Of a stretch of 64,000 bases of DNA, positions 15,306 to 62,087 are shown piece after piece (position 1 is the first letter of the stretch; each line of letters begins with the position of its first letter). The notes beneath the pieces were generated by a model. It made no database searches. It was not told the origin of the DNA and saw only the letters and a list, made by a program, of their open reading frames with translations. The stretch covers positions 62,001-126,000 of the forward strand of contig JACPUX010000052.1 of the NCBI GenBank assembly GCA_016192065.1, written 5' to 3'. Made by a program: the position numbers and the translations under genes. Source of the stretch: Betaproteobacteria bacterium (lineage in GTDB: Bacteria; Pseudomonadota; Gammaproteobacteria; Burkholderiales; Casimicrobiaceae).

Positions 15306-15350
15306 TGAAGCGGGTATCCGTACGACAACCTTACCCGCGAGGTGATCAAA

Positions 15351-16700
15351 ATGGGCCAACGCACTGCGAGCTTTTCCGATCTGAAAGTGAAAATCCTGGC
15401 GGCCACCGTTGCCGCCGCCGTCGCCGCCGGGCTCGTCGCCTGCGCCGGCGGGCCCACCCGGGGCACCGACACGAGTGGCATCGACTGGAGCAAAGTGCCA
15501 GCCACCAAGCTGGTGCTGTTCTATCCGGGCAAATCGTCCTACGAATGGCTGCGCGACCCGGCGGCGCACAAGGGCGCGGCCAGCGAGACGGCGCGTGGTG
15601 ATTCCTGCGTCTCCTGCCACGACGACGCCAAGGAAGAGCAGCGCCAGGGCGCCAAGATCCTCAGTGGCAAGCATCCTCTCGAGCCGATTGCCCCGCCCGG
15701 CAAGCCGGGCCACGTCGACGTGGCCGTCCAGGCCGCCTTCGACGACAAGAACGTCTATCTGCGCTATCAGTGGAAGGGCAGCAACGACATCGAGTACCCC
15801 TACTACCGCTTCGACGGCAAGGAGTGGAAGGTCTATGGCGGTCCGCGCCTGGACAAGCCCGTCCAGGAAGGCATGCAGCCGGCCATTTACGAGGCGCGCA
15901 TGTCGCTCATGCTCGACGACGGCAAGGTGCCGATGTTCAAGGAGCAGGGCTGCTGGCTCACCTGCCACGAGGGCGAGCGCGACCTGAATCCCGCCACGAC
16001 CGATCAGGTGAAGGCCAATGCGGCGATGCAGGCCTACAAGAAGTCCGACGTGCGCAAGTACTTGCCGGCCTCGCGCAGCGATCCCTCCGACTGGAAGACC
16101 GGCAAGTCGCTCGACGAGATCGCGAAGATCAAGGCGGCCGGCGGCTTCGCCGACCTGATCCAGTGGCGCGCCCACCGTACCAACCCGGTCGGTGGCACCG
16201 ACGACGGTTACGTGCTGGAATGGCGCAATTTCGATGCCGGCAAGAACCACTTCGCCTCGAACCTGAACGCAACCACCAAGCAGCCCAACTTCATGTTCGA
16301 CGCCGCCAAGTTCGGCACCAAGGCGGTCAGCGCCGATCAGGTGCGCACCAAGGACAACTTCCTGATCAAGGGCGCCAATGCCGTGCCCTTCGATCCGAAC
16401 GCCGGCTGGAAGGCGGGCGACATGCTGCCGCGTTATGTCCTGCAGCCGGCCGACGCCTCCGGTTCTGCCGCCGACAACAAAGGCTACGGCATGTGGAAGG
16501 ACAGCCTGTGGACGGTTGTCGTCGTGCGCCCCCTCAATTTGGCCAATCCCGACGACAAGGCCCTGAAACCGGGCGGCGTATACAACGTCGGCTTCGCTCT
16601 GCACAGCGACAACATCACTACGCGCGGCCACTACGTGTCTTACACCAAGACGCTGGGCATCGGCGCCAAGGCCGACATCGTGGCGGTGAAGCAGCCCTGA
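15351..16700 (+). CDS. Lipoprotein cytochrome with ethylbenzene-dehydrogenase-gamma-like (EB_dh) haem-binding domain
   Basis: 449 residues. A lipobox (GLVAC, Cys31) predicts membrane anchoring on the periplasmic side. CVSCH (86-90) is a c-type haem site, and CWLTCH (201-206) is a second, atypical CX3CH site. The body (VDVAVQAAFDDKNVYLRYQW..., AHRTNPVGGTDDGYVLEWRN, LWTVVVVRPL near the end) looks like the EB_dh domain that binds haem b in gamma subunits of type II DMSO reductases. Start ATG 15351 follows GCGAGGTGATCAAA; GTG 15342 is possible. First gene after the sigma-54 promoter. No molybdenum subunit is adjacent, so it works apart from an Mo enzyme here, probably passing electrons to or from the cytochromes encoded downstream. 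Confidence 0.8.
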   Translation: MGQRTASFSDLKVKILAATVAAAVAAGLVACAGGPTRGTDTSGIDWSKVPATKLVLFYPGKSSYEWLRDPAAHKGAASETARGDSCVSCHDDAKEEQRQGAKILSGKHPLEPIAPPGKPGHVDVAVQAAFDDKNVYLRYQWKGSNDIEYPYYRFDGKEWKVYGGPRLDKPVQEGMQPAIYEARMSLMLDDGKVPMFKEQGCWLTCHEGERDLNPATTDQVKANAAMQAYKKSDVRKYLPASRSDPSDWKTGKSLDEIAKIKAAGGFADLIQWRAHRTNPVGGTDDGYVLEWRNFDAGKNHFASNLNATTKQPNFMFDAAKFGTKAVSADQVRTKDNFLIKGANAVPFDPNAGWKAGDMLPRYVLQPADASGSAADNKGYGMWKDSLWTVVVVRPLNLANPDDKALKPGGVYNVGFALHSDNITTRGHYVSYTKTLGIGAKADIVAVKQP

Positions 16701-29335: not shown

Positions 29336-30523
29336 CTACAGCAAGCCGCGGAAGGCGCGGTGCTGGAGGGAGGCGAAGAGCGAGTCGAACTCGGCTAGCG
29401 AATTCCGATGCATGGACTTCAGTTTCTCGACGCCAGCCACTCGACAAGCGAACTCATTCTGAACCCGGACCGGCGGCTGCGGAATCCGGATTGCCTGCAC
29501 CTCCGTCGCGTTGATGTTCGCCATGCCAACTATGCTCTTGCACATCCCGCGAAGCACGCGCTTCGAATAAGCAGTATTCAGGAAACAGGCGAGATACTCC
29601 GGGTCGTTCTCACGGTTCACACGTAGGCGAATCAAATAGCCTGCGTAGGCCATCGGTCGCGCCTCGCGAAAGATGGCCGTCTTGCCGACCAACTCTGGAC
29701 TGTTCGTGCGGTTGAAAAGGACGTCTCCAGTTCGCACCAAATAGCGATCGCGTTCGCCCTCGTCCAAATTCATGTACTTCAAATCCGAGAGGTCTGTATC
29801 CCCGGTGCGCGAGATATTGTTCATCCGCAAGACCGGGAACTCTCCAGTGGCTTCAGACTTCTCGCTGGTCCCGTAGGACGCTGATTCAAGAAGGTCGCCA
29901 GTCGTCCGCACCGGCCAGCCCTTCGGATTCGTGGCGGGGTCGCCGAACATGTCGAGGAAGATGGATTGGGTGAGGGTGTCGAGCTGGGCGAGGGCCGCGC
30001 GGCGCTTGGCCCGCAGCGCGTCCGCCTTGTCCAGGATCTCCGCAATCCGCCGCTGCTCGGGGATCGGGGGCAACGGGACCCGAATTGCCTTGATTTTTTC
30101 CAGCGTTAGTCGACGGATCGCGACACCTACCATTCCGTCGAGAATCCGGCGTTTGACAAGTGGAGCGTTGAGCCAATGGCACAAGAATTCGGGCGTTAGC
30201 ACCGCAGCCCTTGGGCGCAGCAACGCCACGCTCGACAGCATGCTGAACTCGAAAGCGTATCGGTTGACTGCAGCGATACCTGTCGTAGCACCATCCTTGA
30301 TGTAAAGCACGTCACCCGGTCTCGGATCGCAGCGGGAGAAGATCGCGCGATGATCATCCTCACTTACGAACCATGGATCCGAAAAGAAATCACACCCGTC
30401 TTCCTTGATGTGCTTCGCCGTGACGTACGGAACACCTGCAGACTGAATGGGCGGAGAGTGATGCGTACCGTCCGTGATCTTCTCGCAGGCATCGGCGAGC
30501 GGCATGGTCTTCCACCCGTTCAC
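29336..30523 (-). CDS. hsdS: Type I restriction specificity subunit S
   Basis: 395 residues with two target-recognition domains. The first ends in the conserved VPLPPIPEQRRIAEILDKADAL helix, the second in IRIPQPPVRVQNEFACRVAGVEKL. The two halves recognise the two parts of a bipartite DNA site; the sequence recognised cannot be read. The start is GTG overlapping the hsdM stop (GTGA), so the two are translationally coupled. Confidence 0.93.
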   Translation of the reverse strand: MNGWKTMPLADACEKITDGTHHSPPIQSAGVPYVTAKHIKEDGCDFFSDPWFVSEDDHRAIFSRCDPRPGDVLYIKDGATTGIAAVNRYAFEFSMLSSVALLRPRAAVLTPEFLCHWLNAPLVKRRILDGMVGVAIRRLTLEKIKAIRVPLPPIPEQRRIAEILDKADALRAKRRAALAQLDTLTQSIFLDMFGDPATNPKGWPVRTTGDLLESASYGTSEKSEATGEFPVLRMNNISRTGDTDLSDLKYMNLDEGERDRYLVRTGDVLFNRTNSPELVGKTAIFREARPMAYAGYLIRLRVNRENDPEYLACFLNTAYSKRVLRGMCKSIVGMANINATEVQAIRIPQPPVRVQNEFACRVAGVEKLKSMHRNSLAEFDSLFASLQHRAFRGLL

Positions 30524-32070
30524 CTCAGCATGCCCTCCAAATTCTCGATTCCCCGATGAATCTCCTCCTCCAGCTTCGCGAGGTCGGCGAGGATTTCCTT
30601 CGGCGCTCGGTGCTCGACTGCCTCGTGCACCACTTCCTTGTAGCGGTTGAGCGAGAGGTCGTAGCCCTGCGCCGCGATGTCGGCCTTGGGCACGCAGAAG
30701 CTCTGCGCGGTGCGCGGCCGTTCGCGCTCGGCGCTGTTGCGCCCGGCCCAGCGCGCCAGCACGTCGGGCAGGTTGTTCTTGGCGTGCTCGTCCGCAGCGA
30801 GCGCGGTGCGTGGCACGGGCCCGAGCTTCTCGTCCGGCAGCAGCGGCGTGCGCTTGTCGTCGAGGCTCCAGCCGTCGGCCCCGATGTCGTAGAACCAGAC
30901 CTGGTCGGTGCCGCCGGAGTTGGTCTTGGTGAAGAGCAGGATGGCGGTGGACACGCCAGCGTAGGGCCGGAACACGCCGCCGGGCAGCTTGACGACGGCG
31001 TCGAGCTTCTGGTCTTCGACCAGCATGCGGCGCAGTTCCTTGTGCGCGGTGCTGGAGCCGAACAGCACGCCGTCGGGCACGATCACCGCGGCGCGGCCGC
31101 CGGGCTTCAAGAGGCGCAGGAACAGGGCCAGGAACAGTAGCTCCGTCTTCTTGGTCTTGACGATCTGCAGCAGATCCTTGGCGGTGTTTTCGTAGTCGAG
31201 GCTGCCGGCAAAGGGCGGATTGGCCAGCACCAGCGTGTACTTCTCCTCCTCGCCGGCGTGGTCCTGCGCCAGCGAGTCGCGGTAGCGGATGTCGGGGTTC
31301 TCCACGCCGTGCAGCAGCATGTTCATGCTGCCGATGCGCAGCATGGTGTTGTCGAAGTCGAAGCCGTGGAACATGCGGTGGTGGAAGTGCTCGCGCAGCT
31401 TCGCGTCGTGCAGGATGTTCGGGTGGCGCTCGCGCAGGTATTCTCCCGCCGCGACGAGGAAACCCGCCGTGCCGCAGGCCGGGTCGCAGATGACGTCGGT
31501 CGGTTGCGGCGCGGTCAGCTCGACCATCAGACGTATGATGTGGCGCGGCGTGCGGAACTGGCCATTCTGCCCGGCGCTGGCGATCTTGCCGAGCATGTAC
31601 TCGTAGACGTCGCCCTTGGTGTCGCGGTCCTCCATCGGCACGGCGTCGAGCAGGTCCACCACCTTGGCCAGCAGCGCCGGTGTGGGGATGGTGAAGCGCG
31701 CGTCCTTCATGTGGTGCGCGTAGGTGGAGTCGTCGCCGCCCAGCGTCCTGAGGAACGGGAAAACGTGCTCACCGACCACGGTGTACATGTCACCCGGGGC
31801 GAAGTCCTTGAAGCGCGACCAGCGCAGGTCGTCGTAGGGGCGGCCCCCATCCCTGCCAATCCCGTCGTTGCCCTCGGGGAAGACCCGGCGTTCCATCGGC
31901 CGCTTGAACCGGGCGGACTTGTTCTCCTCCAGCGTGTGCAGGTCGTTCAGCCGGCGCAGGAACAGGAGGTAGGTGATCTGCTCGATCACCTCCAGCGGGT
32001 TGGAGATGCCGCCTGACCAGAAGGCGTTCCAGATCTGGTCGATCTGGCTCTTGATGTTGCCGGTGATCAT
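30520..32070 (-). CDS. hsdM: Type I restriction adenine methyltransferase subunit M
   Basis: 516 residues. The N-terminal HsdM_N helical domain (ITGNIKSQIDQIWNAFWSGG) is followed by the N6-adenine methylase core, with SAM motif DPACGTAGF (196-204) and catalytic NPPF (284-287). The start is ATG 32070. Frames extend upstream, but the family begins here. First gene of the minus-strand hsdM-hsdS-AlbA_2-hsdR run. Confidence 0.94.
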   Translation of the reverse strand: MITGNIKSQIDQIWNAFWSGGISNPLEVIEQITYLLFLRRLNDLHTLEENKSARFKRPMERRVFPEGNDGIGRDGGRPYDDLRWSRFKDFAPGDMYTVVGEHVFPFLRTLGGDDSTYAHHMKDARFTIPTPALLAKVVDLLDAVPMEDRDTKGDVYEYMLGKIASAGQNGQFRTPRHIIRLMVELTAPQPTDVICDPACGTAGFLVAAGEYLRERHPNILHDAKLREHFHHRMFHGFDFDNTMLRIGSMNMLLHGVENPDIRYRDSLAQDHAGEEEKYTLVLANPPFAGSLDYENTAKDLLQIVKTKKTELLFLALFLRLLKPGGRAAVIVPDGVLFGSSTAHKELRRMLVEDQKLDAVVKLPGGVFRPYAGVSTAILLFTKTNSGGTDQVWFYDIGADGWSLDDKRTPLLPDEKLGPVPRTALAADEHAKNNLPDVLARWAGRNSAERERPRTAQSFCVPKADIAAQGYDLSLNRYKEVVHEAVEHRAPKEILADLAKLEEEIHRGIENLEGMLR

Positions 32071-32492
32071 GTTGAAACTTTCGGAGGCTTTTGGTTTAGG
32101 TGAAATGCGACCGTCCCCGGCAGGGGTATGCATTCGCCTCGGCATACTGCCGCAAGCCTGTCGGATTATCAATCTGCACGGCTAACCGCAGCCAGGTGCT
32201 GGTGCCCTGCGGCCATCGGCTCGGTGCTCGCGGCCGGGCGCGCCGACGCGGTGCTCGCCGTGGTGCTCGATACTTGGGCCGGTGATCGCCTCGGGCGTCG
32301 TCGTTGTTTGATCGCCCTGTCCCTGCTTTTGCTGTTGTGCGAAGGTCTCGTGGATATAGACGTGTCGACGCGCCCGCCTTGGGCCATTGCCGAGGTGGCG
32401 CCGCAAGAGCGGGAAGGCAAGAGCGGGAAGGATTGCCGTCACGGTTTCATTTTGCTACGATAGGCCACAAATGTAGCAATCCGGAGAACGCC
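32071..32492. other. Gap between divergent hsdM and ParD/RelE-like genes
   Basis: About 420 bp. It must hold the hsdM promoter on the minus strand and the toxin-antitoxin promoter on the plus strand. Open frames here lack ribosome-binding sites and family motifs. The only clear structure is the TTGCTAC/GTAGCAA dyad near its right end. Confidence 0.5.
32452..32479. promoter_or_regulatory. TTGCTAC/GTAGCAA operator of the ParD/RelE-like pair
   Basis: A perfect 7-bp inverted repeat with a 14-bp spacer ends 13 bp before the antitoxin start codon. Antitoxins of this type usually repress their own operon by binding such dyads. Confidence 0.5.
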
Positions 32493-32720
32493 GTGAGCAT
32501 GCCCGTCCGCATCGACGACGAACTGTACGAACAGGCCAAGGCCGCCTCGAAGGGCGAGTGCCGCAGCATCGCCGGCCAACTCGAATTCTGGGCCAAGATT
32601 GGCAAGGCCGCGCTCGACAATCCCGATCTGCCTATCGACTTCGTCCGGGAACTGCTGATCGCGCGGGCGGAAGACCGCAAGCAACTGCCCGGCTTCGCGC
32701 CGGGCCAGTTCCGTGACTAA
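32493..32720 (+). CDS. ParD-like antitoxin
   Basis: 75 residues. A ribbon-helix-helix-type N-terminus (MPVRIDDELYEQAKAASKGE) is followed by RSIAGQLEFWAKIGKAALDNPDLP, typical of the ParD-like antitoxin family. GTG 32493 has a well-placed GGAGA; ATG 32499 is the alternative. The end overlaps the toxin start by 8 bp. It neutralises the toxin and likely represses the operon at the TTGCTAC dyad. Confidence 0.82.
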   Translation: MSMPVRIDDELYEQAKAASKGECRSIAGQLEFWAKIGKAALDNPDLPIDFVRELLIARAEDRKQLPGFAPGQFRD

Positions 32721-32988
32721 GGTCGCGGTCCTTCAGACCAGCGCCTTTCTGCGCGCCTACAAGAAGCTGCACAACAAACAGAAGGATGCGGTCGACCGGG
32801 CGGTCGCCGACATTGTGCGCGACCCGACGCTGGGCGAGGCCAAGAAAGGCGACCTGGCCGGCGTCTTGATCTACAAGTTTGACTGTGTCAAGCAGTTGTA
32901 TCTACTGGCTTACGAATACGATTCGGCCACGCGCGTGCTGCTGCTGGTCGGGACGCACGAAAATTTCTACCGGAACCTCAAGCGCTGA
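32713..32988 (+). CDS. RelE/ParE-superfamily toxin
   Basis: 91 residues, basic, with RelE-like spacing: LQTSAFLRAYKKLHNKQKDAVDRAV, then LIYKFDCVKQLYLLAYEYD and a final VGTHENFYRNLKR. The start is GTG overlapping the antitoxin. Members cleave mRNA on ribosomes or poison gyrase; which applies here is not evident. It forms a complete toxin-antitoxin pair within the restriction island. Confidence 0.82.
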   Translation: MTKVAVLQTSAFLRAYKKLHNKQKDAVDRAVADIVRDPTLGEAKKGDLAGVLIYKFDCVKQLYLLAYEYDSATRVLLLVGTHENFYRNLKR

Positions 32989-33054
32989 AGTCGCCCTTGC
33001 GCGCTGCGGACACGAATACTGCCGCTTACCCGCTGCGCAGGAGGGCGGCTTCGT

Positions 33055-33525
33055 TCAGGGTTTCATGGCCAAGAAATTGGCGCCGCGCACGCCGTATTTG
33101 CGCGCGGTTTTTTCCTTGCTGGTGCCGGCGAAGGAATCGAAATACTCCACCACCCGGCAGCGTGTGAATCCAACTTCTTCGAGCAACGCGAGGTAGCCTG
33201 CAGACTGCAGAGCGCCCGCGATTCAGCCGACCCAGAGTTCGATGTCGTTGCGCGCGGCTTCGGACAATTCGCCATCGATGACGATATCGGCAAACTGCAC
33301 TTGCCCACCGGGGCGGATAACCCGAAAAAGCTCTCTGAACACTTGCCGTTTTTCGGGGCTGAGATTGATCACCCCGTTGGAGATGGCGACATCCATCGCC
33401 GCATCTTCCGAGGGCAAATCGCCGATGTCGGCTTTCTCGAAGCGCACCTGTGGCATGGCCGCGGTTTCGGCGCCGGCGCGCGCTTGAAGTCCAATGGAGC
33501 GAAGAGAAAGGCCCTGGCCACTGTT
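33055..33525 (-). pseudogene. Truncated arsenite-methyltransferase-like gene with in-frame TGA
   Basis: The frame encodes the C-terminal two thirds of an ArsM-like SAM methyltransferase: MPQVRFEKADIGDLPSED, VAISNGVINLSPEKRQVF, VIRPGGQVQFADIV, DIELWVG, then TGA (33223-33225), then IAGALQSAGYLALLEEVGF and the intact C-terminus KTARKYGVRGANFLAMKP. In relatives the TGA position is a conserved Cys (WxGCIAGAL). The 5' part with SAM motif I is missing: two in-frame stops precede it and the HigBA genes lie just beyond. The simplest reading is a decaying gene fragment. A hairpin just after the TGA raises a selenocysteine alternative, discussed in the findings. Confidence 0.7.
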
Positions 33526-33593
33526 TCAGGCCCCTTATGCGCGAGGCTACAGGTGCGGCACCGCGGCAACCGCCGTTTCGTGCCGATCGGTCT

Positions 33594-33890
33594 CTACGCG
33601 GCCTGTTTCTCGTGGCGCGCGGGCAATTGGCCGGCCATTCGCCGTTCCGCTCGCCAGAGGTCATGGCGCATCTGCATGTCGATCCACAGTTGCGGGCCGT
33701 TGCCGAAGAAGGCGCCCAGGCGCAGCGCCATCTCCGGCGACACCGACGACCGCTCGGAGAGGATGCTATGCACCATCTGCCTCGACACTCCAAGCGCCCG
33801 CGCGAAGGCGGCCACCGACATATTCAGAGCCGGGAGGCTGTCCTCCCGCAAAATTTGGCCGGGATGGGTCGGGCAGCGTGTCTTGCGCAT
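33594..33890 (-). CDS. higA: HigA-type antitoxin (XRE family)
   Basis: 98 residues. The HTH (MSVAAFARALGVSRQMVHSILSERSSVSPEMALRL) and the HPGQILREDSL start are typical of HigA/VapI antitoxins. It follows higB in the same direction with a 10-bp gap, the toxin-first order usual for HigBA. It binds the toxin and the operon's own promoter. Confidence 0.88.
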   Translation of the reverse strand: MRKTRCPTHPGQILREDSLPALNMSVAAFARALGVSRQMVHSILSERSSVSPEMALRLGAFFGNGPQLWIDMQMRHDLWRAERRMAGQLPARHEKQAA

Positions 33891-33900
33891 GGTTCGTTCC

Positions 33901-34176
33901 TCAGTGGTAGTTTTCTAGATCGACTTCGATGGCGTTATCGCCTTCCCAGCCGAAGGTGATGCACCACGGGCCATTGACATGCACGCTATAACGCTGCGGT
34001 TCGCCCTTCAGCGGATGGAAATCGAAGCCCGGCACCCGCAAGGCCTCTGGCGTCTTGGCTGCGGCGATGGCATCCAGTCGTCGGACCGCACGCGCCCATA
34101 GATCGGGTCGCACTCTGGCGGATTTGCCCGCTCGTGCCAGCGCCTCTAATCCCCGGTGCCTGAAGCTCGCAATCAC
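33901..34176 (-). CDS. higB: HigB-type toxin
   Basis: 91 residues of the RelE/HigB ribosome-dependent mRNase family: IASFRHRGLEALARAG at the start and GEPQRYSVHVNGPWCITFGWEGDNAIEVDLENYH at the end, both hallmarks. The start is taken at GTG 34176, just behind a good promoter. It is a complete HigB with no truncation. Confidence 0.88.
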   Translation of the reverse strand: MIASFRHRGLEALARAGKSARVRPDLWARAVRRLDAIAAAKTPEALRVPGFDFHPLKGEPQRYSVHVNGPWCITFGWEGDNAIEVDLENYH

Positions 34177-34182
34177 CGAAAG

Positions 34183-34211
34183 AGTGTAAAAGCAGGCTTG
34201 ACATCCGTCAA
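34183..34211 (-). promoter_or_regulatory. higBA promoter with overlapping operator
   Basis: Reading the minus strand: TTGACG (34211-34206), 17 bp, TACACT (34188-34183), then the HigB GTG at 34176. The message would be nearly leaderless. The -35 box is embedded in a palindrome, TTGAC-GGAT-GTCAA (34198-34211), well placed for autorepression by HigA. Confidence 0.6.
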
Positions 34212-34344
34212 TGGTGGTTTGACAGCAATTTTCCGGCACGAGACAAATGCGCCAAGACGGACATCGCCGCCGGCGGAGACGCGCTGGTATTCGCCTGCGC
34301 CGCGGCGATGAAGTGCCCTGCTTACTGTGGCGCGGGTGACGGGG

Positions 34345-34800
34345 CTATTTCACATCTTTGATCGCCGTCTTCAGGGCCTCGTGCGCCGGCTTGGGCTCTT
34401 TGGCCATTAGTCGCCCTTCCTGCTTGTGTTTGGCGACACCTTCGACTTCGAGGATATCGGCCAGCTCGGTGAAGCTCACCATGCCGTTGCCCTTGCCGCC
34501 GTCTTCGGCGATCAGTTCGTCACCGTAGAACACCGCCGGCGCTTTGGCGCCGGGGCCGGCGAGGGCGTGGGGCACGATTTTCACCGGCAGCAGGTAGATA
34601 TTGGTGAGTTCGGCGGCGACCTGCATGTTGTTGTTGCAGCGGACCCAGGGCGGGTCGCGCACCACCAGCGTCAGAACCTTCTGGTCGCCCAGCTTAGTGG
34701 CGCCGGGCGTGCCCGCCCATGCCGGGAAGGGGAGACTGCCCAAGTGCAAAACGGTAGCGGCCAACAGCGCCATCGGCAACGCGCGCGGCAGGGTGTTCAT
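34345..34800 (-). CDS. Secreted protein of unknown function
   Basis: 151 residues with a signal peptide (cleavage near FPAWAG). Not recognised. The mature part has one Cys (PPWVRCNNN) in a context loosely like a thioredoxin-fold redox motif, a Gly-rich stretch (EDGGKGNGMVSF) and a Lys-rich tail. It is divergent from another small secreted protein with only 78 bp between them, so the two may share control. Confidence 0.7.
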   Translation of the reverse strand: MNTLPRALPMALLAATVLHLGSLPFPAWAGTPGATKLGDQKVLTLVVRDPPWVRCNNNMQVAAELTNIYLLPVKIVPHALAGPGAKAPAVFYGDELIAEDGGKGNGMVSFTELADILEVEGVAKHKQEGRLMAKEPKPAHEALKTAIKDVK

Positions 34801-34835
34801 GGGAAGCTCCTTCGGTTGATTGCCGGATCGGTGGA

Positions 34836-34851
34836 GAGTATTCTAGTACTC
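34836..34851. promoter_or_regulatory. GAGTA/TACTC dyad in the divergent promoter
   Basis: GAGTA-TTCTAG-TACTC lies midway between the divergent starts at 34800 and 34879. It is the only dyad in this 78-bp gap and could coordinate both genes. Confidence 0.35.
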
Positions 34852-34878
34852 GTTTGAACATTGGTCGAGGAGGCAGAC

Positions 34879-35241
34879 ATGGCGGGACGAATCTTTGGCC
34901 TGCTGCTCCTGGCGGCAGTCTCGATTGCGCCGGTAGCAGCCGCTGATGAAGCGACGCCCATGGCCGGGTTTATCCTCGGGCGGCCTTGCGCCGAAGCCGG
35001 CCGCGTCGGCGAGTGTCCGCTGAAGTGGGCCGACGCCATGGTGTTTCGCAGCATGCAGGGCAAGATCTATGACATCGACCTTGCCGCGAGCGGCATCAAG
35101 CAAGAGCGCCTGGACGAAGCTTATGGCCTGGAAGTCGAGTTGTACGGAAAAGTGAGCGTGGCCGGAAGGGAAAGTCGTGTCGCGATTGCCCAACTCAACA
35201 TCGTCAAGCCGCCGGGCAGTCGTGAGTTTTTCAAGGGCTGA
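34879..35241 (+). CDS. Small secreted protein of unknown function
   Basis: 120 residues; ATG 34879 follows GAGGAGG. The signal peptide ends near PVAAADEA. The mature domain has two Cys (GRPCAEAGRVGECPLKW) and a beta-rich centre (AYGLEVELYGKVSVAGRESRVAIAQLNIV) that could be an OB-like fold. No family recognised. It precedes the tandem repeat and the molybdoenzyme operon on the same strand. Confidence 0.72.
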   Translation: MAGRIFGLLLLAAVSIAPVAAADEATPMAGFILGRPCAEAGRVGECPLKWADAMVFRSMQGKIYDIDLAASGIKQERLDEAYGLEVELYGKVSVAGRESRVAIAQLNIVKPPGSREFFKG

Positions 35242-35347
35242 CTGTGAGTTCGCGTCCCCGGTTCGGGGCAAGAGAACACCCTCCCCCGAAAACGCAGTTT
35301 CAGAGGAGGCTAATGCCCGCGCCAACGGGCGTTATGCCGGAACTCAA

Positions 35348-35565
35348 TCGCCGCTTTGCGGCGATCTCCCCTCAAGGGGCAGAAACACTCGGGGCGGCCC
35401 TTCGTGTGGCAAGGTCCACCCCGAAATCGCCGCTTCGCGACGATCTCCCCTCAAGGGGCAGAAACACTCGGGGCGGCCCTTCGTGTGGCATGGTCCACCC
35501 CGAAATCGCCGCTTCGCGACGATCTCCCCTCAAGGGGCAGAAACACTCGGGACGGCCCTTCGTGT
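35348..35565. repeat. 79-bp tandem repeat, 2.8 copies
   Basis: Copies start at 35348, 35427 and 35506; the last stops after 60 bp. They differ at only a few positions. Each contains CCCC-TCAA-GGGG, a short hairpin. The period is not a multiple of three and the region has no convincing gene, so it is non-coding. It fills most of the 342-bp gap (35242-35583) and ends 18 bp before the operon's first start codon. Confidence 0.9.
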
Positions 35566-35583: not shown

Positions 35584-36474
35584 ATGATGCAGTGGATCGC
35601 CCTCCTTGCTGGAATGACTGTGGCGCTGGTGGTTCAGGTGGCGCAGGCGCAGGGTTATGCGCGGCCGGAGCTGCTGATCGAGACCGAGGAGCTGGCGCGC
35701 ATCCTTGACCAGAAGCACCTGCGTCTGGTGGACGCTGGCGACGGGGCCACCTACCGGCGCGCCCACTTGCCCGGCGCGGTGAACATTCCCTATCTCGAGC
35801 TCTCCCGCATCGATGAGCGCCGCGGCACCGGGCAGCCCACCAGCAACTTCGAGGCCGAGCGCATTTTTGGCGGGGCCGGCATCGAAGCCGGCACGCTGGT
35901 GGTGGTCTACGACGGCGGCGAAGGTGCGCCGGCCACCGGCGTCTGGTTCGTGCTCGACTTCTTCGGCCACCAGCGGGTGCGGGTGTTGAACGGGGGCTTT
36001 CGCAAATGGCTGAAGGAGGGGCGACCGGTCACGCAGGCGGTGCCGGTTATCGAGCGCAAGAAATTCGTGCCGTCGCCGCAGCCGGAGAAGATCGTCACGC
36101 GCGATTGGGTGAGACGAAATCTCGGCGCCAAGGGCGTCGTCTTTGCCGACACGCGTTCCTTCAACGAATACATCGGCCGCGAGCAGCCGCCGGGCGCGGC
36201 GCGCGGCGGCCACATCCCCGGGGCCATCCATCTCGAGTGGACGAATTTCTCCGCCGACACCGCTTCCTTCAAGGGCGCCGCCGAGATCGAGGCGGCGCTG
36301 AAGGCACGTGGCATCAAACGCGAGACCCAGGTCGTCACCTACTGCCAGGGGGGCTTGGGCCGCTCCACCGATGTCGCCTTCGCCATGAAGCTGATCGGCT
36401 GGGACAAAGTCGTCGAGTATCCCGGCTCCTGGGAGGAGTGGTCGGCCGATCCGCGCCTGCCGCTGGAAAAATGA
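35584..36474 (+). CDS. Periplasmic two-domain sulfurtransferase (SseA/thiosulfate sulfurtransferase type)
   Basis: 296 residues with a signal peptide (LVVQVAQAQ). Two rhodanese domains: an inactive N-terminal one (LRLVDAGDGATYRRAHLPGAVN) and a catalytic C-terminal one with loop YCQGGLGRST (Cys in CQGGLGR). This is the thiosulfate/3-mercaptopyruvate sulfurtransferase layout, though the loop differs from the CRxGxT(S) of rhodaneses and the CG(S)GV(T) of 3-MST. It is the first gene of the TlpA/molybdoenzyme operon. A sulfur compound as substrate or product of the operon is a fair inference. Confidence 0.88.
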   Translation: MMQWIALLAGMTVALVVQVAQAQGYARPELLIETEELARILDQKHLRLVDAGDGATYRRAHLPGAVNIPYLELSRIDERRGTGQPTSNFEAERIFGGAGIEAGTLVVVYDGGEGAPATGVWFVLDFFGHQRVRVLNGGFRKWLKEGRPVTQAVPVIERKKFVPSPQPEKIVTRDWVRRNLGAKGVVFADTRSFNEYIGREQPPGAARGGHIPGAIHLEWTNFSADTASFKGAAEIEAALKARGIKRETQVVTYCQGGLGRSTDVAFAMKLIGWDKVVEYPGSWEEWSADPRLPLEK

Positions 36475-36487
36475 AAGAGCATTTGAA

Positions 36488-36569
36488 CCGCAGATTTCGC
36501 AGATTTCCGCAGATCTCAAAAACAAAGTGTTTTTTGCAATGGGTCTGCGTCAATCTGTGTCATCTGCGG
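36488..36569. repeat. Palindromic repeat copy 1 (between sulfurtransferase and TlpA genes)
   Basis: The left arm starts CCGCAGATTTCGCAGATT and the right arm ends with AATCTGTGTCATCTGCGG, an imperfect dyad of about 82 bp built on a CGCAGATT repeat. Two further copies lie at 39840 and 41014. Copy 1 ends exactly at the base before the TlpA ATG. Confidence 0.9.
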
Positions 36570-37073
36570 ATGGCTTTGCTTCTACTTGCAGTCGTGATTG
36601 CTTCGGGACCATCGTTTGCCGCCAACGCACTGAAGCCTTTTTCAGGCACGGCGACCGACTTCGCCGCGCAGGATATGCAGGGTAAGCCGGTGCGTTTCTC
36701 GGCCTATCGCGGCAAGGTGGTGCTGCTCAACTTCTGGGCCACCTGGTGCCCGCCCTGCCGCAAGGAGATGCCGGCGATGGAGCGCCTGCACCGGGCCTAT
36801 CGCGAACGCGGGCTGGTGGTGCTGGCGGTGTCGCAGGACGAGGCGCCGCTGGAGGACGTGCGCCGCTTCGCCGCCTCGATGGAACTGACTTTTCCCGTCT
36901 GGCACGACCGCGCGCGCGAGGCGGCGCAACATATCAGCGTGCCGGGCGTGCCGACCTCCTACCTGATCGCTGCTGACGGCCAACTCGCGTACCGCGTGCT
37001 GGGCGAATACGACTGGAGCGGCAAAGAGGCGATCGGCGTGATCGAGCTGCTGCTCGACGAGGCGGAGAAATAG
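36570..37073 (+). CDS. TlpA/ResA-like periplasmic thioredoxin
   Basis: 167 residues with a signal peptide (LLLAVVIASGPSFAA) and a thioredoxin fold. The active site is WATWCPPCRKEM and the cis-Pro loop VPGVPTSYL. The start ATG touches the end of palindromic repeat 1, so the repeat supplies the upstream leader. It probably keeps cytochrome or enzyme thiols reduced in the periplasm, for example during haem attachment to the gamma subunit. The next gene begins right after its stop. Confidence 0.9.
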   Translation: MALLLLAVVIASGPSFAANALKPFSGTATDFAAQDMQGKPVRFSAYRGKVVLLNFWATWCPPCRKEMPAMERLHRAYRERGLVVLAVSQDEAPLEDVRRFAASMELTFPVWHDRAREAAQHISVPGVPTSYLIAADGQLAYRVLGEYDWSGKEAIGVIELLLDEAEK

Positions 37074-39824
37074 ATGGTCTCGCGGCGCGATTTCATCAAG
37101 TCGGGTGCAGCCTGCGGCCTCATGGCAGGGCTGCCCGACGAATTGCTGGCGCGCATCCAGGACCCCAGCAATCCGCTATCAAGCTACCCCTACCGCGAAT
37201 GGGAGGACTTCTACCGCAAGGAGCTGGCGGACACGCGCGGCGACAGTCGGGGCTGGGCCTTTCATTGCTCCAACTGCCAGGGCAATTGCGCCTTCCGCGT
37301 GTATGCGAAAGACGGTGTGGTGACGCGCGAAGAGCAACTTGCCGAATACCCGCAGCTGAATCCGAACCTTCCCGACCCCAATCCGCGCGGCTGCAACAAG
37401 GGCACCATCCACTCGCAGGCGATGTACGAGAAGGACCGCTTGCACTATCCCTTGAAGCGCGCCGGGGCGCGCGGTTCGGGCAAATGGCAGCGCGTCTCCT
37501 GGGACGAGGCGCTGGGCGATATCGCGGAGAAGATGGTCGACACGCTGATGAAGGACGGGCCAGCCGCGGTTATGATTTATGCCGGCACCGGCATCGTCTC
37601 GCAGGGCAAGCGCGCCGGGCCGCTGCGTCTCGGCTCCCTGCTGGGCGCGCAACGCCTCTATCCCTCCAGCGCGGTGGGCGACATGTTCACCGGAGCGAGC
37701 CTGGCCTACGGTATCCCCAACGTCGGCACTTCGCTCGACGCTTGGTTCGAGATGGACTATATCGTCCTGTGGAGCTTCAACCCGAACACCACGCGCATCC
37801 CCGATGCCCACTACCTGTGGGAGGCGAAATGGCGCGGCGCCAAGATTGTCGTCATCTCGCCCGACTACAACCCGACCGCCATCCACGCCGACCTGTGGAT
37901 CCCGATTCAGCCCGGCACCGACAGCTTCCTGGCGATGTCGCTGGTGCAGGTGGTGCTCGCCGAGAAGCTCTACAAGGAAGACTTCATTCGCGAGCAGACC
38001 GATCTCACCTTCCTGGTGAGGGAAGACAATGGGCAGCTCCTGCGCCTGTCCGACCTCAGGAAGGGCGGGCGCGACGACGTCTTCTACTGCTGGGACGAGG
38101 CGAGCGGCAAACACCAGGCCATGCCCGGCACCCGCGGCCACTTTCGCAAGACGCTGCGCCTGGGGGCGTTGAAGCCGGCGCTCTCCGGCCGCTACGAGGT
38201 GAAGGGCGCCGACGGCGGGGCCATCCCCGTCACTACCGTGTTCGAGAAGCTGCGCGCCGAAGCGGCGAAGTTTTCGCCCGAGGCGACGCAGCGCCACACC
38301 GGCATCCATCCCGACGTGGTGCGGCGTCTGGCGCGCGAATACGCGGCGGCGCACGACCCGGGGCTCACCATCGGTTTCTCGCTGCACAAGTACGCCTGGG
38401 GGATTTTGGCCTGCTGGGGCCAGGCGCTCTTTTGCGCGCTCACCGGCCACGACGTGGTGGACACCGAGCATCAGTGGAGCCTGGGCGGCATCGGCCCACT
38501 ATCCAACCCGAAGCCGGCGCGCTTCGGCTCCGGTTTCTACGGCGAGTGGATGGCCGGACGCATGTGGGAGACCTTCCGCCGCCATTATGGCAACGGGCCG
38601 GAGTTCGCCCGCCGCGCCGGCCTGGCGCCTGAGGAACTGGTGGAGCTGGCCGAAACCGCGCGCGAAAAGAAGTGGACGACCTACCACGGCCAGCCGAAGG
38701 TGCGCCTCTTGTTCGCCGAGAACATCTTCCGCCGCAACAAATCCACGGCACACTACCGAAAAGCGGTGCTGGACGCCACCGAGCTCTACGTCAACGTCAA
38801 CTTTCGCATGGATTCCTCGGCCGAGTACGCCGACTATGTACTGCCCGCGACCAGCCACTACGAGGCCTGGGACATCCGCGGCGAGGTCGGCTACCACCGC
38901 TACGCCAACCTCACCATGCCGCCGCCGGGTCTGAAGCCGGTGGGCGAATCGAAGTCCGAGTGGGAGATCTGCCGCCTGCTGGCGGAGAAGATCCAGCAAA
39001 CGGCGAAGCGTCGCGGCCTTGGCCCGATTGCCGATCCAGAATTCACCGTCGAGCGGCAAGGAAAGAAGGTGCCGGTCACGCGCGATCTCGACATCCTGCA
39101 CGACGAGTTCACGATGCTTGGCCGCGTGACCACGGACAAGGACGTGGTGAAGTGGCTGATCGAGAACGTGCCGGCCTTCCAGCCCTGGAAGTTCGAGGAC
39201 GTGGTGCGTAACGGTTACCTCACGCTCAACAGCAACGCCGGCCTCACCTCGCCGCTCTACCACGACAAGCCCTACCGCTCCTTCGAAGAGCAGTTTTATC
39301 TCAAGAAACCGTACCCAACGCTCTCCGGCCGCCAGCAGTTCTACATCGACCAGGAGGTGTTCCTGAAACTCAAGTGCGCCGTGCCGACGGCGCGCGAGCC
39401 GCTCGCCCCGGCGAAATTCCCGCTCAAGTTCTATTCGCCGCACACGCGCTGGGGCATCCATTCCACCTGGCGCACGAACAAATACATGTTGCGCCAGCAG
39501 CGCGGCGTGCCGCACGTGAACCTCAATCCGCGTGATGCCGCGGCGCGTGGCATTCGCGACGGCGACACGGTGCGCGTCTTCAACGACATCGGCGAATTCC
39601 GCGCCATGGCCAAGCTGATGCCGGGCGTGCGCCCCGGCACGCTGATCATGGACCACGCCTGGGAACCGCAACAGTTCATCAAGCGCCTCGGCATGGACGA
39701 GCCGGTGGCCGGCCTGGTCTCACCGCTGGAACTGGCCGGCGGTTGGGGCCACCTGCAGTTCGGCGCCGAGTGGGACGGCAACCAGCTGGCCTATGAATCC
39801 TCCGTGGACGTGGCCAAGGCTTGA
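37074..39824 (+). CDS. Type II DMSO-reductase-family molybdoenzyme, catalytic alpha subunit
   Basis: 916 residues with a Tat signal (SRRDFIKSG, residues 3-11). The N-terminal FeS site is His64-x3-Cys68-x3-Cys72...Cys107, the His-type motif of the type II group (nitrate, selenate, chlorate, perchlorate reductases; dimethylsulfide and ethylbenzene dehydrogenases). The probable Mo ligand is Asp203 in VGDMFTGASLAYG. Molybdopterin-binding motifs continue to the end (YSPHTRWGIHSTWR, HVNLNPRDAAARGI). It oxidises or reduces a substrate in the periplasm with the beta and gamma subunits encoded downstream. The substrate cannot be assigned; no TorD-type chaperone gene is adjacent, unlike most relatives. 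Confidence 0.88.
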   Translation: MVSRRDFIKSGAACGLMAGLPDELLARIQDPSNPLSSYPYREWEDFYRKELADTRGDSRGWAFHCSNCQGNCAFRVYAKDGVVTREEQLAEYPQLNPNLPDPNPRGCNKGTIHSQAMYEKDRLHYPLKRAGARGSGKWQRVSWDEALGDIAEKMVDTLMKDGPAAVMIYAGTGIVSQGKRAGPLRLGSLLGAQRLYPSSAVGDMFTGASLAYGIPNVGTSLDAWFEMDYIVLWSFNPNTTRIPDAHYLWEAKWRGAKIVVISPDYNPTAIHADLWIPIQPGTDSFLAMSLVQVVLAEKLYKEDFIREQTDLTFLVREDNGQLLRLSDLRKGGRDDVFYCWDEASGKHQAMPGTRGHFRKTLRLGALKPALSGRYEVKGADGGAIPVTTVFEKLRAEAAKFSPEATQRHTGIHPDVVRRLAREYAAAHDPGLTIGFSLHKYAWGILACWGQALFCALTGHDVVDTEHQWSLGGIGPLSNPKPARFGSGFYGEWMAGRMWETFRRHYGNGPEFARRAGLAPEELVELAETAREKKWTTYHGQPKVRLLFAENIFRRNKSTAHYRKAVLDATELYVNVNFRMDSSAEYADYVLPATSHYEAWDIRGEVGYHRYANLTMPPPGLKPVGESKSEWEICRLLAEKIQQTAKRRGLGPIADPEFTVERQGKKVPVTRDLDILHDEFTMLGRVTTDKDVVKWLIENVPAFQPWKFEDVVRNGYLTLNSNAGLTSPLYHDKPYRSFEEQFYLKKPYPTLSGRQQFYIDQEVFLKLKCAVPTAREPLAPAKFPLKFYSPHTRWGIHSTWRTNKYMLRQQRGVPHVNLNPRDAAARGIRDGDTVRVFNDIGEFRAMAKLMPGVRPGTLIMDHAWEPQQFIKRLGMDEPVAGLVSPLELAGGWGHLQFGAEWDGNQLAYESSVDVAKA

Positions 39825-39839
39825 AGGAAAATTCATGAA

Positions 39840-39924
39840 CCACAGATTACGCAGATGGACGCAGATTCACAGCGAAAAGCCTCTTCTGGTTTTTGGGATC
39901 TGCGGAAGTCTGCGCAATCTGCGG
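39840..39924. repeat. Palindromic repeat copy 2 (between alpha and beta genes)
   Basis: Starts CCACAGATTACGCAGATGG and ends TCTGCGCAATCTGCGG, same architecture as copies 1 and 3, about 85 bp. It fills nearly the entire alpha-beta gap, in a family of genes normally spaced by a few bases. Confidence 0.9.
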
Positions 39925-39940
39925 ACTGCCTGAGCTACCT

Positions 39941-40993
39941 ATGTCGAAACGCCAGCTCGCCATGGTCATGGACCTCAACAAGTGCATCGGCTGCCAGACC
40001 TGCACCTCGGCCTGCAAAACCCAGTGGACCAACCGCAACGGCCGCGACTACATGTACTGGAACAACGTCGAGACCCATCCCGGCAGCGGCTATCCGCGCA
40101 AGTGGCGCGAATTCGGCGGGGGCTTCGACGCGACGGGTAAGGTGAGGCAAGGGCGCATCCCCGACCTTGCGCGCGACTACGGCCTGCCCTTCGATCTGAA
40201 CTACGCGGAGGCGCTGAATGCAAAAGGGGCGCAGGGCGCGCCCAACGATGCCGAGCACCCCAAGAGTGCTTCCTTCAGGGCGCCGCCGCATCTTCAGCCA
40301 CTGACTCCGCCTACCTTCGGCCCGGGCTGGGACGAGGACGCCGGCGCCGGCGAGTATCCGAACACACACTTCTTCTACCTGCCACGCATCTGCAACCACT
40401 GCTCGAACCCGGCCTGCCTGGCTGCCTGCCCGCGCGGCGCTATTTACAAGCGCGAGGAGGACGGCATCGTGCTGGTCGACCAGGAGCGCTGCCGCGGCTA
40501 CCAACATTGCGTCGGCGCCTGTCCCTACAAGAAGGTGTACTTCAACCCGCTCTTCCGCCGCGCGGAGAAATGTATCTTCTGCTATCCGCGCATCGAGCAG
40601 GGTCTGGCGCCGGCCTGTGCGCGGCAGTGTGCCGGTCGCATCCGTTTCGTCAGCTTTCTCGACGACCATGCAGGGCCGGTGCACAAGCTGGTGACGAAAT
40701 GGCAGGTGGCGTTGCCGCTCTTCGCCGAGTTCGGCACGCAGCCCAACGTCTACTACGTCCCGCCGCTCTCGCCGAGCAAGCTCGACACGCAGGGGCGCCC
40801 CACCGGCGAGCGGCGCATCCCGGAGGCCTTCCTCGTCGAGCTGTTCGGCCCGCGCGTGCCGGAAGTGCTGAAAGTGCTGGAGACTGAACGCGAGAAGAAA
40901 CGGCGAGGCGAAACCTCCGAGCTGATGGACCTCCTCATCGCCTATAAGCACGAGGAAATGTTCAAGCTCGATTCACCGAAGGGGAAGGCATGA
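39941..40993 (+). CDS. Molybdoenzyme beta subunit (four FeS clusters)
   Basis: 350 residues. Cluster motifs are CIGCQTCTSAC, CNHCSNPACLAACP, CRGYQHCVGACP and CIFCYPRIEQGLAPACARQC. In the third, a Tyr replaces one Cys (CxxYxxC), the place where NarH-type subunits have Trp and hold a 3Fe-4S cluster, so one 3Fe-4S and three 4Fe-4S are expected. YKKVYFN after that motif is also type II specific. It transfers electrons between alpha and the haem-b/c gamma subunit. It has no signal peptide and should be co-exported with alpha by the Tat system. Start ATG 39941 lies 16 bp after repeat 2. Confidence 0.92.
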   Translation: MSKRQLAMVMDLNKCIGCQTCTSACKTQWTNRNGRDYMYWNNVETHPGSGYPRKWREFGGGFDATGKVRQGRIPDLARDYGLPFDLNYAEALNAKGAQGAPNDAEHPKSASFRAPPHLQPLTPPTFGPGWDEDAGAGEYPNTHFFYLPRICNHCSNPACLAACPRGAIYKREEDGIVLVDQERCRGYQHCVGACPYKKVYFNPLFRRAEKCIFCYPRIEQGLAPACARQCAGRIRFVSFLDDHAGPVHKLVTKWQVALPLFAEFGTQPNVYYVPPLSPSKLDTQGRPTGERRIPEAFLVELFGPRVPEVLKVLETEREKKRRGETSELMDLLIAYKHEEMFKLDSPKGKA

Positions 40994-42051
40994 GTCTGCC
41001 TGAAAACCCTCCTCCGCAGATTTCGCAGAGTTCCACCGATTCCAAAAACATCCCGATGCGGTCGCTTTTAATCTGCGCAAATCTGCGTCATCTGCGGTTC
41101 GCCCTTTTCTTTTCATTGTTCTATTCGCTCCTGGCTGCCGCAGCCGACATCCCATTGCTGCGAATCGAAGGCGAGCCTGCGGCTGACCCGTTCAGCCCGG
41201 CTTGGCTCAAACAAGCGCCGGTGGCCGTGGCGCTTTATCCCCAGGTCAGCGTCCCGCCAGCGGCGAAGACCGGCAAAAGCAGCGTGAAGGTGCGCGCCCA
41301 GCGTGGCGCGACCACGCTGGCGCTGCATCTTGAATGGGCTGACCGCAAACCTGCCAAACAGCGCCGCATCGGCGCCTTCGCCGACGCCGCTGCGGTGCAG
41401 TGGCCGCAGCGCCCGCAAGCGGAGTTGCCCTTCATCGGCATGGGCCACCGCGGCGCGCCGGTGACGCTGTGGTTTTGGCGCGCCGATGGCACGGCGGAGC
41501 TGCTGGCCGCCGAGGGCTTCGGTACGCTCACCAAGCAGTCCGACGCTGGCGTGTTGGCCCGCGGCAAGTGGAAGAACGGCCTCTGGCGCGTGGTGCTGTC
41601 CCGCGCGGTGGAGCCTTCACCGGAGTCGTGGCCGGTAGCGTTTGCACTCTGGAACGGCGAGGGCGGCGAGCGTGGTGGCGTCAAGCGCCTCTCGGCGTGG
41701 CAAACACTGCGCTTTGGCGGTCCGGGGACCACTGGCAAGGCAATGCTGCCGGGCAACGCTGCACGGGGCAAGCGCCTCATGTCGGAGAGGGGATGCGCCG
41801 CTTGCCACAGCTATCCCGGCAATCCGACCCAGCCGACCCAGCTGACCATCGGCCCGGATCTAACCTACGCCGGCGGCCTGCACGCGCCGGCGTATCTCGA
41901 AGAGTCCCTGCGCGAGCCTTCGAAAATCGTCCTGCCCTGCAGGTCTTGCTTCGTCGAGCAGAACGGACAACGCATTTCCATCATGCCCCCCTTCGAGGGC
42001 AGCGAGAAAGACCGCACTGACCTTTTGAGCTACCTTCGTAGCCTGCGTTGA
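40990..42051 (+). CDS. Molybdoenzyme gamma subunit: EB_dh haem-b domain fused to cytochrome c
   Basis: 353 residues, start ATG overlapping the beta stop (ATGA). The N-region up to about residue 36 is encoded by palindromic repeat 3. A hydrophobic signal segment follows (FALFFSLFYSLLAAAAD). The EB_dh-type domain (LALHLEWADRKP, VTLWFWRADGTAE, GLWRVVLSRAV, PVAFALWNGEGGERGG) would bind haem b via Met/Lys as in EbdC/DdhC. The C-terminus is a monohaem cytochrome c with CAACH and IMPPF (distal Met). Known gamma subunits lack the c domain, so the enzyme may exchange electrons directly with soluble cytochromes. Internal ATG 41056 gives a shorter, equally plausible signal peptide. Confidence 0.85.
   Translation: MSLPENPPPQISQSSTDSKNIPMRSLLICANLRHLRFALFFSLFYSLLAAAADIPLLRIEGEPAADPFSPAWLKQAPVAVALYPQVSVPPAAKTGKSSVKVRAQRGATTLALHLEWADRKPAKQRRIGAFADAAAVQWPQRPQAELPFIGMGHRGAPVTLWFWRADGTAELLAAEGFGTLTKQSDAGVLARGKWKNGLWRVVLSRAVEPSPESWPVAFALWNGEGGERGGVKRLSAWQTLRFGGPGTTGKAMLPGNAARGKRLMSERGCAACHSYPGNPTQPTQLTIGPDLTYAGGLHAPAYLEESLREPSKIVLPCRSCFVEQNGQRISIMPPFEGSEKDRTDLLSYLRSLR
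41014..41097. repeat. Palindromic repeat copy 3 (inside the gamma N-terminus)
   Basis: Starts CCGCAGATTTCGCAGAG and ends AATCTGCGTCATCTGCGG-like, about 84 bp. It is read in frame within the gamma gene, adding around 28 residues before the hydrophobic core of the signal peptide. A new in-frame ATG (41056) lies inside it. Confidence 0.9.
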
Positions 42052-61544: not shown

Positions 61545-62087
61545 ATGCTCATTAACCGCGCCCACTCCAGCCTCTTGGTGATCGATTTGCAGCAAAAGCT
61601 CCTGCCGGCGATCGACGGCGGGGCGGCGGTGATCGAGCATGCGGTCTGGCTAATCCGCCTCGCGCAGCGCCTGGGGGTGCCGGTGGCGGCGAGCGAGCAA
61701 TACCCGGAAGGTCTGGGCCCGACCGTCGCCGCGGTACGCGATCTGCTCCCGGACCAGGCGATCGGCGGCAAACTTCACTTCTCATGTGTGCGCGCCGGAT
61801 GTCTCGCCGGGCTGCCGGGAAGCGAGCGGCGCCAGCGCGTGGTGATCGGTACCGAAGCCCATGTCTGCGTGCTCCAGACGGTGCTGGGCCTGTTGCGCGA
61901 GGGCCATGAGGTCTTTGTCGTCGAAGAGGCGGTCGGATCGCGCCGCGCCTCCGACCGGGCGGCGGGGCTTGCGCGCATGCGCCAGGAAGGCGCACGCATC
62001 GTCAGTCGCGAGATGGTCGCCTTCGAATGGCTGGAAGCGGCCGGCAGCGACGAGTTCCGCGAGATCAGCAAGAGTTTCTTGCGGTAG
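61545..62087 (+). CDS. Isochorismatase-family hydrolase
   Basis: 180 residues with the cysteine-hydrolase catalytic set: Asp in LLVIDLQQKLLP, Lys in AIGGKLHFSC and Cys in GTEAHVCVLQTVLGLL. This is the YcaC/nicotinamidase-like family. The substrate is unknown. It begins 15 bp after the AACS stop. Confidence 0.9.
   Translation: MLINRAHSSLLVIDLQQKLLPAIDGGAAVIEHAVWLIRLAQRLGVPVAASEQYPEGLGPTVAAVRDLLPDQAIGGKLHFSCVRAGCLAGLPGSERRQRVVIGTEAHVCVLQTVLGLLREGHEVFVVEEAVGSRRASDRAAGLARMRQEGARIVSREMVAFEWLEAAGSDEFREISKSFLR

Follow-up and report, generated by a model that had tools for sequence, protein, structure and literature searches.

Type II enzymes of the dimethyl sulfoxide (DMSO) reductase family comprise selenate, chlorate and perchlorate reductases as well as hydrocarbon and dimethylsulfide dehydrogenases; one of them, DdhA, oxidises the sulfur of dimethylsulfide. 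Here we describe a locus of this family in a 64,000-nt stretch of DNA (hereafter the window; positions 62,001 to 126,000 of contig JACPUX010000052.1, assembly GCA_016192065.1) from a Betaproteobacteria bacterium of the Casimicrobiaceae, in which genes for a rhodanese and a TlpA-like protein precede those for the alpha, beta and gamma subunits of a molybdenum (Mo) enzyme. Its nearest described relatives are the DdhA-like and type II ClrA enzymes, which likewise have an alpha subunit exported by the twin-arginine translocation (Tat) pathway, an aspartate ligand, a beta subunit and a gamma subunit with heme b. The selenate reductase SerABDC and the type I chlorate reductase ClrABDC of Ideonella belong to the same family, and PcrA and EbdA have the family fold and the Fe-S motif in common with the window alpha subunit, but lie in far clades.

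We tentatively read this locus as encoding a rhodanese-coupled periplasmic chalcogen oxidoreductase, which most likely would oxidise inorganic sulfur and feed c-type cytochromes. The initial annotation of the window had placed the five genes on the forward strand, where we recovered all of them at the same coordinates, and had described the locus as an orphan. The latter label had to be given up, as 38 related loci form one clade with the window alpha subunit, making this a conserved and widespread family. The locus also extends beyond the five genes: 34345-35247, with h151 and the selenoprotein candidate h126, belongs to it too.

Phylogenetic position of the alpha subunit

The alpha subunit matches the model TIGR03479 over its full length (979 bits, E 2.3e-294), 6 bits below the curated cut-off of 984.75, and its Tat signal is recognised by PF10518 (E 7.2e-5), a match that barely passes the cut-off of that model. 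In alignments, the residues of the Fe-S motif (His64-x3-Cys68-x3-Cys72...Cys107) and the Mo ligand Asp203 coincide with those of the type II family. The closest solved structures are PcrA (4ydd, 486 bits) and EbdA (2ivf, 398 bits), while the NxrA chain 7b04 reaches no more than 126 bits; the aromatic stretch FYDWYGD of PcrA is replaced by YPSSAVGD in the window alpha subunit. Matches to TIGR03479 at E<=1e-100 are rare, being found in 7 of 369 genomes of the class and 5 of 399 of the order, with the window genome counted in both.

From 485 candidates confirmed in a contig scan we took the best 79 loci, many of them from metagenome-assembled genomes (MAGs), some of which may be mis-binned (e.g. 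L048). Of these, 38 (L045-L082) make up clade A and 41 (L083-L123) clade B. Hosts of clade A include Sulfuritalea, Thiobacillus, Sulfuricella, Thioalkalivibrio denitrificans (the cultured strain ALJD, L073), Rhodocyclaceae, Nitrospirota, Nitrospinota and Deferribacteres, among others, and the locus is also present in a genome of the same genus as the window, with an alpha subunit 91% identical. In a bootstrapped posterior mean site frequency (PMSF) tree of 33 rows, clade A (13 representatives) and clade B are each supported at 100/100 and their union at 100/98, the SerA/ClrA-I group (100/100) falls outside this union, and PcrA and EbdA are more distant. A quick tree of 54 rows, 23 of them from clade A, agrees with this topology, and a FastTree of all 39 clade A and 42 clade B rows recovers each clade as one group, with local support of 99 and 100, respectively. 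Clade A, to which the window alpha subunit belongs, is a separate branch, sister to the DdhA-like/ClrA-II clade and not within it. Placement inside a characterised clade would have spoken against the initial annotation; the alpha subunit falls inside none of those in our trees, namely SerA/ClrA-I, DdhA-like/ClrA-II, PcrA, EbdA and NarG, with NarG in the quick tree only, no named rows for NxrA, S25dA or CmdA, and neither Thauera SerA nor Rhodovulum DdhA themselves among the rows. Our literature search found no reaction assigned to clade A.

We read clade B, whose alpha subunits are 47-50% identical to that of the window, as DdhA-like plus type II ClrA because it includes Stutzerimonas chloritidismutans AW-1 (L086), the sole chlorite-dismutase match among the 79 loci, and Rhodobacterales with kinase and regulator genes as neighbours; the DdhA label is our assumption, based on synteny. 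Outside both clades, the alpha subunits of L130, L135, L137, L139, L140 and L145 share 80-84% identity with Ideonella ClrA, an excerpt of PMC12724226 gives 83.6% identity between Thauera SerA and Ideonella ClrA, and chlorite dismutase had no match in L130 or L163-L168; we therefore took these as SerA-type. SerA itself was ruled out for the window, since its alpha subunit lies outside the SerA/ClrA-I clade (43% identity to the L165 alpha subunit and 41% to Ideonella ClrA) and is the only match at E<=1e-150 to a SerA-type query in the window genome. The same distribution of chlorite dismutase led us to reject a chlorate reductase.

Further type II alpha subunits were met during these searches. 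Three genomes that bear clade A (G1033:C33, G1032:C38 and G1059:C250) hold an additional type, 48-49% identical to the L165 SerA-type alpha subunit, and one genome (G179; L132/L032/L038) holds several, of which one is divergent (31% to the window), one falls within clade B and one lies near EbdA.

Conserved neighbours and electron-transfer subunits

Because the greedy choice of open reading frames (ORFs) in the cluster maps loses genes to opposite-strand ORFs, neighbours were recounted by tblastn, with queries partly taken from the same loci. In clade A, 30 loci had an upstream flank of 3.5 kb or more and 26 a downstream flank of 3 kb or more. A rhodanese gene lies upstream on the same strand in all 30 loci, a TlpA gene in 26 (absent in L053, L077, L078 and L079) and h126 in 29, whereas none of these three is found upstream in any of 34 clade B loci. 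With both strands counted, h151 is upstream of alpha in 24 of these 30 clade A loci, 19 times on the same strand. The rhodanese/TlpA pair, which the initial annotation had singled out, is thus conserved in homologous loci. Its observation that the locus has no TorD-type chaperone gene also extends to the family: TorD was found downstream in none of the 26 clade A loci, the rest of the window genome not having been searched for it, as compared with 38 of 38 in clade B, where ApbC/YCF48-like genes occur as well.

The association with the rhodanese is also visible within a single family of genomes. In the family of G754, which we inferred to be Rhodocyclaceae from its EbdA, PcrA and L047/L062 members, a rhodanese orthologue (E<=1e-40) is present in all four clade-A genomes and in 1 of the 245 others (36% identity), with a Fisher p of 3e-8 that, like our other Fisher tests, ignores relatedness among genomes. 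The second-domain loop of the window rhodanese reads YCQGGLGRST (CX5R), and the pattern YC[QNH]xG[IL]GRST holds in 33 of 34 copies, L066 being outside it; such a CX5R loop has one residue more than that of classical rhodaneses.

Sister loci carry other neighbours too, namely a YedE/TsuA-like transporter, small rhodaneses, a DsrE-type protein, an SQR-like flavoprotein (best model NF049943), TauE, NifS, methionine-gamma-lyase-like enzymes (MGL) and an ArsR-rhodanese fusion; of the listed accessory genes, the window map shows only h151, h126, rhodanese and TlpA. Upstream of one clade A locus, at L163:4482-7755 (Rhodocyclales), stand a Rieske-like protein and a large molybdopterin subunit that by eye resemble arsenite oxidase AioB/AioA.

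The beta subunit passes TIGR03478 (524.5 bits, cut-off 480.7). The gamma subunit matches TIGR03477 over nearly its full length at 124.8 bits, under the cut-off of 169.85, and its EB_dh domain (PF09459) scores above the cut-off of that model. A CxxCH motif is present in gamma of the window and of 19 of the 29 other matched clade A loci, but in none of the 38 gamma ORFs from the clade B side; gamma of L054, L055 and L067 appears to reach the contig ends. Elsewhere in the window, a second EB_dh protein (15342-16700, forward strand; 452 aa) looks lipoprotein-like by eye and has a CVSCH motif, and the window genome holds six PF09459 matches, two of them within one ORF.

Coordinates of the genes and signals of the locus (positions in the window)
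Feature	Coordinates	Strand	Characteristics
h151	34345..34800	-	Thioredoxin-like; secreted, by eye; single invariant Cys (PPxxRC)
h126	34879..35247	+	OB-fold-like; secreted, by eye; candidate K-G-Sec-Leu end; start codon inferred
h126 tail	35239-35241, 35242-35244, 35245-35247	+	TGA (candidate Sec), Leu, stop
Candidate bacterial SECIS hairpin	35256..35268	+	CCCCG-GTT-CGGGG; apical loop from nt 23 (U of UGA = 1)
Two-domain rhodanese	35584..36474	+	Secreted, by eye; PF00581 in two stretches, E 8.9e-33
TlpA/ResA-like thiol-disulfide oxidoreductase	36570..37073	+	WCPPC; PF00578, E 3.8e-28; start inferred
Alpha, Tat-exported molybdopterin catalytic subunit	37074..39824	+	Clade A; TIGR03479, PF10518
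Beta, Fe-S subunit	39893..40993	+	TIGR03478; likely start 39941, inferred
Gamma, EB_dh heme b plus cytochrome c	40990..42051	+	CAACH; PF09459, E 3e-19; PF00034, E 2e-8

A 79-bp tandem repeat (2.8 copies, 97% matches; 35346-35565) lies between h126 and the rhodanese gene.

A candidate selenoprotein and its partners

Comparison of the h126 sequences suggests that this protein probably represents a new selenoprotein family with a C-terminal Gly-Sec-Leu tail, where Sec denotes selenocysteine. In the window the gene ends GAG TTT TTC AAG GGC TGA CTG TGA (FFKG-TGA-CTG-stop). Across distinct loci, counting the identical DNA of L030/L046 and of L047/L163 once each, the codon in question is TGA in 14 and TGC or TGT in 19, and it is followed by a Leu codon and then a stop in every one; six clade loci (L048, L051, L054, L055, L058 and L059) gave no h126 match. 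A bacterial Sec insertion sequence (SECIS) hairpin lies 16-37 nt after UGA, and a hairpin whose apical loop starts at nt 20-23 from the U of UGA is found in all 14 distinct TGA loci. The median energy of the 30-nt hairpin stretch is -11.5 kcal/mol in the TGA loci versus -4.2 kcal/mol in the Cys loci (p 7e-5), but the TGA loci also have a higher GC content in this stretch (0.75 vs 0.58).

The machinery for Sec insertion is present in the window genome, where SelB (G000:C72:174292-176169) is encoded beside tRNA-Sec (G000:C72:174168-174259; 73.4 bits). In the genome searches, for which 36 of the 38 clade A loci were entered (not L048 or L074), SelB scored above the cut-off in 21 of 37 clade-A genomes as compared with 10 of 40 clade-B genomes (p 0.006). 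Sister loci show further exchanges of this kind: YedE is split in nine of them by a TGA where a homologue has Cys, and in L053 a TGA replaces Cys in SelD, in a DsrE-type protein (L053:15793) and in an h151-type protein (L053:17657). SelA, SelB or SelD genes lie near six clade loci (L049, L051, L052, L053, L056 and L073).

It is very improbable, in our view, that h126 merely ends at the TGA and that the TGA-CTG-stop context is due to chance. Such a view could draw on the window hairpin, which is no more stable than shuffled sequences (z 0.30), on the weak RNAalifold covariation of the hairpin, where an alignment of the short 3' regions was of little help owing to their differing loop lengths, and on the lack of SelB above the cut-off in some TGA-type genomes (e.g. 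G1029, G1053 and G1060). In view of the z value and the covariation, we rejected RNA thermodynamics as proof of a SECIS element. However, a chance context would leave unaccounted for the Leu and stop codons of all 14 TGA loci, which equal the C-L-stop tail seen in the 19 Cys loci, as well as the uniform position of the hairpin loop, the SelB and tRNA-Sec genes of the same genome and the additional Sec/Cys pairs in sister loci.

Neither h126 nor h151 matches a Pfam or NCBIfam model, in which they differ from known Sec proteins such as the type III SQR selenoprotein of model NF049943. The AlphaFold model of h126 (predicted local distance difference test score, pLDDT, 82) gave OB-fold matches in Foldseek with a best E of 0.01, and that of h151 (pLDDT 88) gave mostly thioredoxins among its top matches with a best E of 0.013; for both, Foldseek returned nothing at E<=0.001. 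Of the Sec-containing YeeE/YedE, DsrE-like and TlpA-like selenoproteins named in an excerpt of PMC13188914, counterparts in our sister loci are the TGA-split YedE and the TGA-containing DsrE of L053. Our literature search turned up no paper on the gene set or on h126, which does not establish its absence from print. As a probable selenoprotein family, h126 has a tail that ordinary gene calling would cut off, and the Cys/Sec exchanges indicate the redox-active residues of the pathway and thereby make them testable.

Inorganic sulfur or selenium as the probable substrate

Since clade A constantly keeps its own rhodanese alongside and the window locus has a candidate selenoprotein, its Mo enzyme probably handles inorganic sulfur or selenium. 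This strengthens the suggestion of the initial annotation that the substrate might contain sulfur, with a selenium oxyanion as a live alternative to it. The window genome has SoxB in addition to the Sec machinery, and SoxB scored above the cut-off in 26 of 37 clade-A genomes (the window's included) versus 10 of 40 clade-B genomes (p 9e-5). We infer a route in which the secreted rhodanese, through its conserved CX5R loop, would take up or cleave thiosulfate, polysulfide or another inorganic sulfur compound; secreted thiol and selenol proteins (TlpA, h151 and the Sec-tailed h126) would receive the sulfane sulfur and hand it on; and the alpha subunit, with Mo-bis(molybdopterin guanine dinucleotide), may oxidise the remaining or resulting sulfur species at its Asp-ligated Mo, by analogy with DdhA of the sister clade. 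Electrons would then pass from the beta Fe-S clusters to the gamma heme b, the fused cytochrome c and the periplasmic cytochrome pool. With somewhat less assurance, a rhodanese and a selenol relay (the Sec-tailed OB-fold protein and the Cys/Sec thioredoxin-like protein) as standing partners of a Mo enzyme could point to the first enzyme of the type II DMSO family that acts on inorganic sulfane sulfur, or to a Mo enzyme that performs the selenite/elemental-selenium step lacking alongside SerA.

Several observations count against a sulfur-oxidising enzyme coupled to cytochromes. YedE and DsrE are patchy (10 and 6 of the 30 upstream-complete clade A loci, respectively) and neither is seen at the window locus; DsrE was rejected as a specific partner, matching in 73 of the 249 G754-family genomes. 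SoxB has no match in four basal members (Thermodesulfovibrio, Deferribacteres and two Nitrospinota MAGs). In five clade A loci (L062, L065, L068, L069 and L080) gamma ends without a cytochrome c domain, so that the direct wiring to c-type cytochromes proposed in the initial annotation applies to the window and 19 other clade loci, but not to these relatives. In L077, which like L078 is one of the four basal members, beta is followed by a Rieske protein, cytochrome b and then a five-heme cytochrome, a 593-aa ORF with five CxxCH motifs and a gamma-like C-terminal stretch, and L078 is similar; this layout also suits a reductase, electron flow in either direction being compatible with it. Finally, genes of the SerA type, with 91-100% identity to the L165 alpha subunit, are present in 5 of 36 clade-A genomes as compared with 0 of 40 clade-B genomes (p 0.02).

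Because SerA-type genes co-occur, the main rival is a selenium-oxyanion reductase, in which alpha would reduce periplasmic selenate or selenite with electrons from cytochromes and the rhodanese, YedE, NifS and Sec proteins would handle the selenium formed; we consider it rather unlikely. Within the family of G754 the co-occurrence is seen again (3 of 4 clade-A versus 2 of 245 other genomes, p 1.6e-5), the two alpha types are ~16 and ~23 kb apart in two genomes, and in genomes without a clade A match the SerA-type loci L168 (DsrE, NifS, MGL, a methyltransferase and ArsR-rhodanese) and L130 (DsrE, NifS and SQR) bear the same accessory genes; the SelA, SelB or SelD genes near clade loci and the Rieske/cytochrome b genes adjoining L077/L078 also speak for this rival. 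On the other hand, 31 of the 36 clade-A genomes and the window's own lack a SerA-type gene, the SerA-type locus L167 lacks the accessory set, SelA, SelB and SelD may just serve the selenoproteins of the loci, the best-scoring model for the Sec-type YedE is the thiosulfate transporter TsuA, though far under its cut-off, and the SoxB distribution also speaks against it. Four of the five loci whose gamma lacks cytochrome c (L062, L065, L069 and L080) are also SerA-bearing, a pattern that is unexplained.

Two further explanations were weighed. An organic-sulfide dehydrogenase acting on dimethylsulfide or methanethiol, with rhodanese and TlpA present by accident or for protection, would fit the fold and Asp ligand shared with the DdhA-like loci of the sister clade, but the contrast in rhodanese between the two clades (30 of 30 and 0 of 34) makes it improbable, and the segments around Asp203 differ, being YPSSAVGDMFTG in the window alpha subunit and DIFTDVGDLNTG in L114 and L118. 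We give equally little credence to rhodanese and TlpA as maturation factors standing in for TorD, with cofactor sulfuration and apocytochrome reduction as their tasks and no bearing on the substrate. TorD is indeed absent from all 26 loci assessed, and the c-type heme of gamma requires reduced cysteines; however, by eye the rhodanese starts with a secretion signal, while the Mo cofactor is inserted before Tat export, and L062, L065, L069 and L080 retain both genes though their gamma has no cytochrome c.

Other comparable systems are the MOLY and YTD clusters of sulfur disproportionators, which according to an excerpt of PMC12998232 likewise include a Mo enzyme or a YedE-DsrE sulfur module, respectively, of unproven chemistry. 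In that text MOLY has a TorD/DmsD chaperone and is discussed alongside PhsA and TtrA, and YTD typically consists of yedE, tusA, dsrE and hypothetical genes with no Mo enzyme. Clade A adds to the type II DMSO-reductase family an entire branch with a conserved and unusual partner set, and knowledge of its substrate would extend the sulfur or selenium cycle of groundwater, sediment and sulfur-oxidising bacteria by one step. A lead towards arsenite from PMC6620896 was set aside, as the excerpt of that paper points to soeABC. Upstream of the locus, at 29336-34239 of the window, the ORFs include by eye type I restriction-modification genes and small toxin-antitoxin-like pairs.

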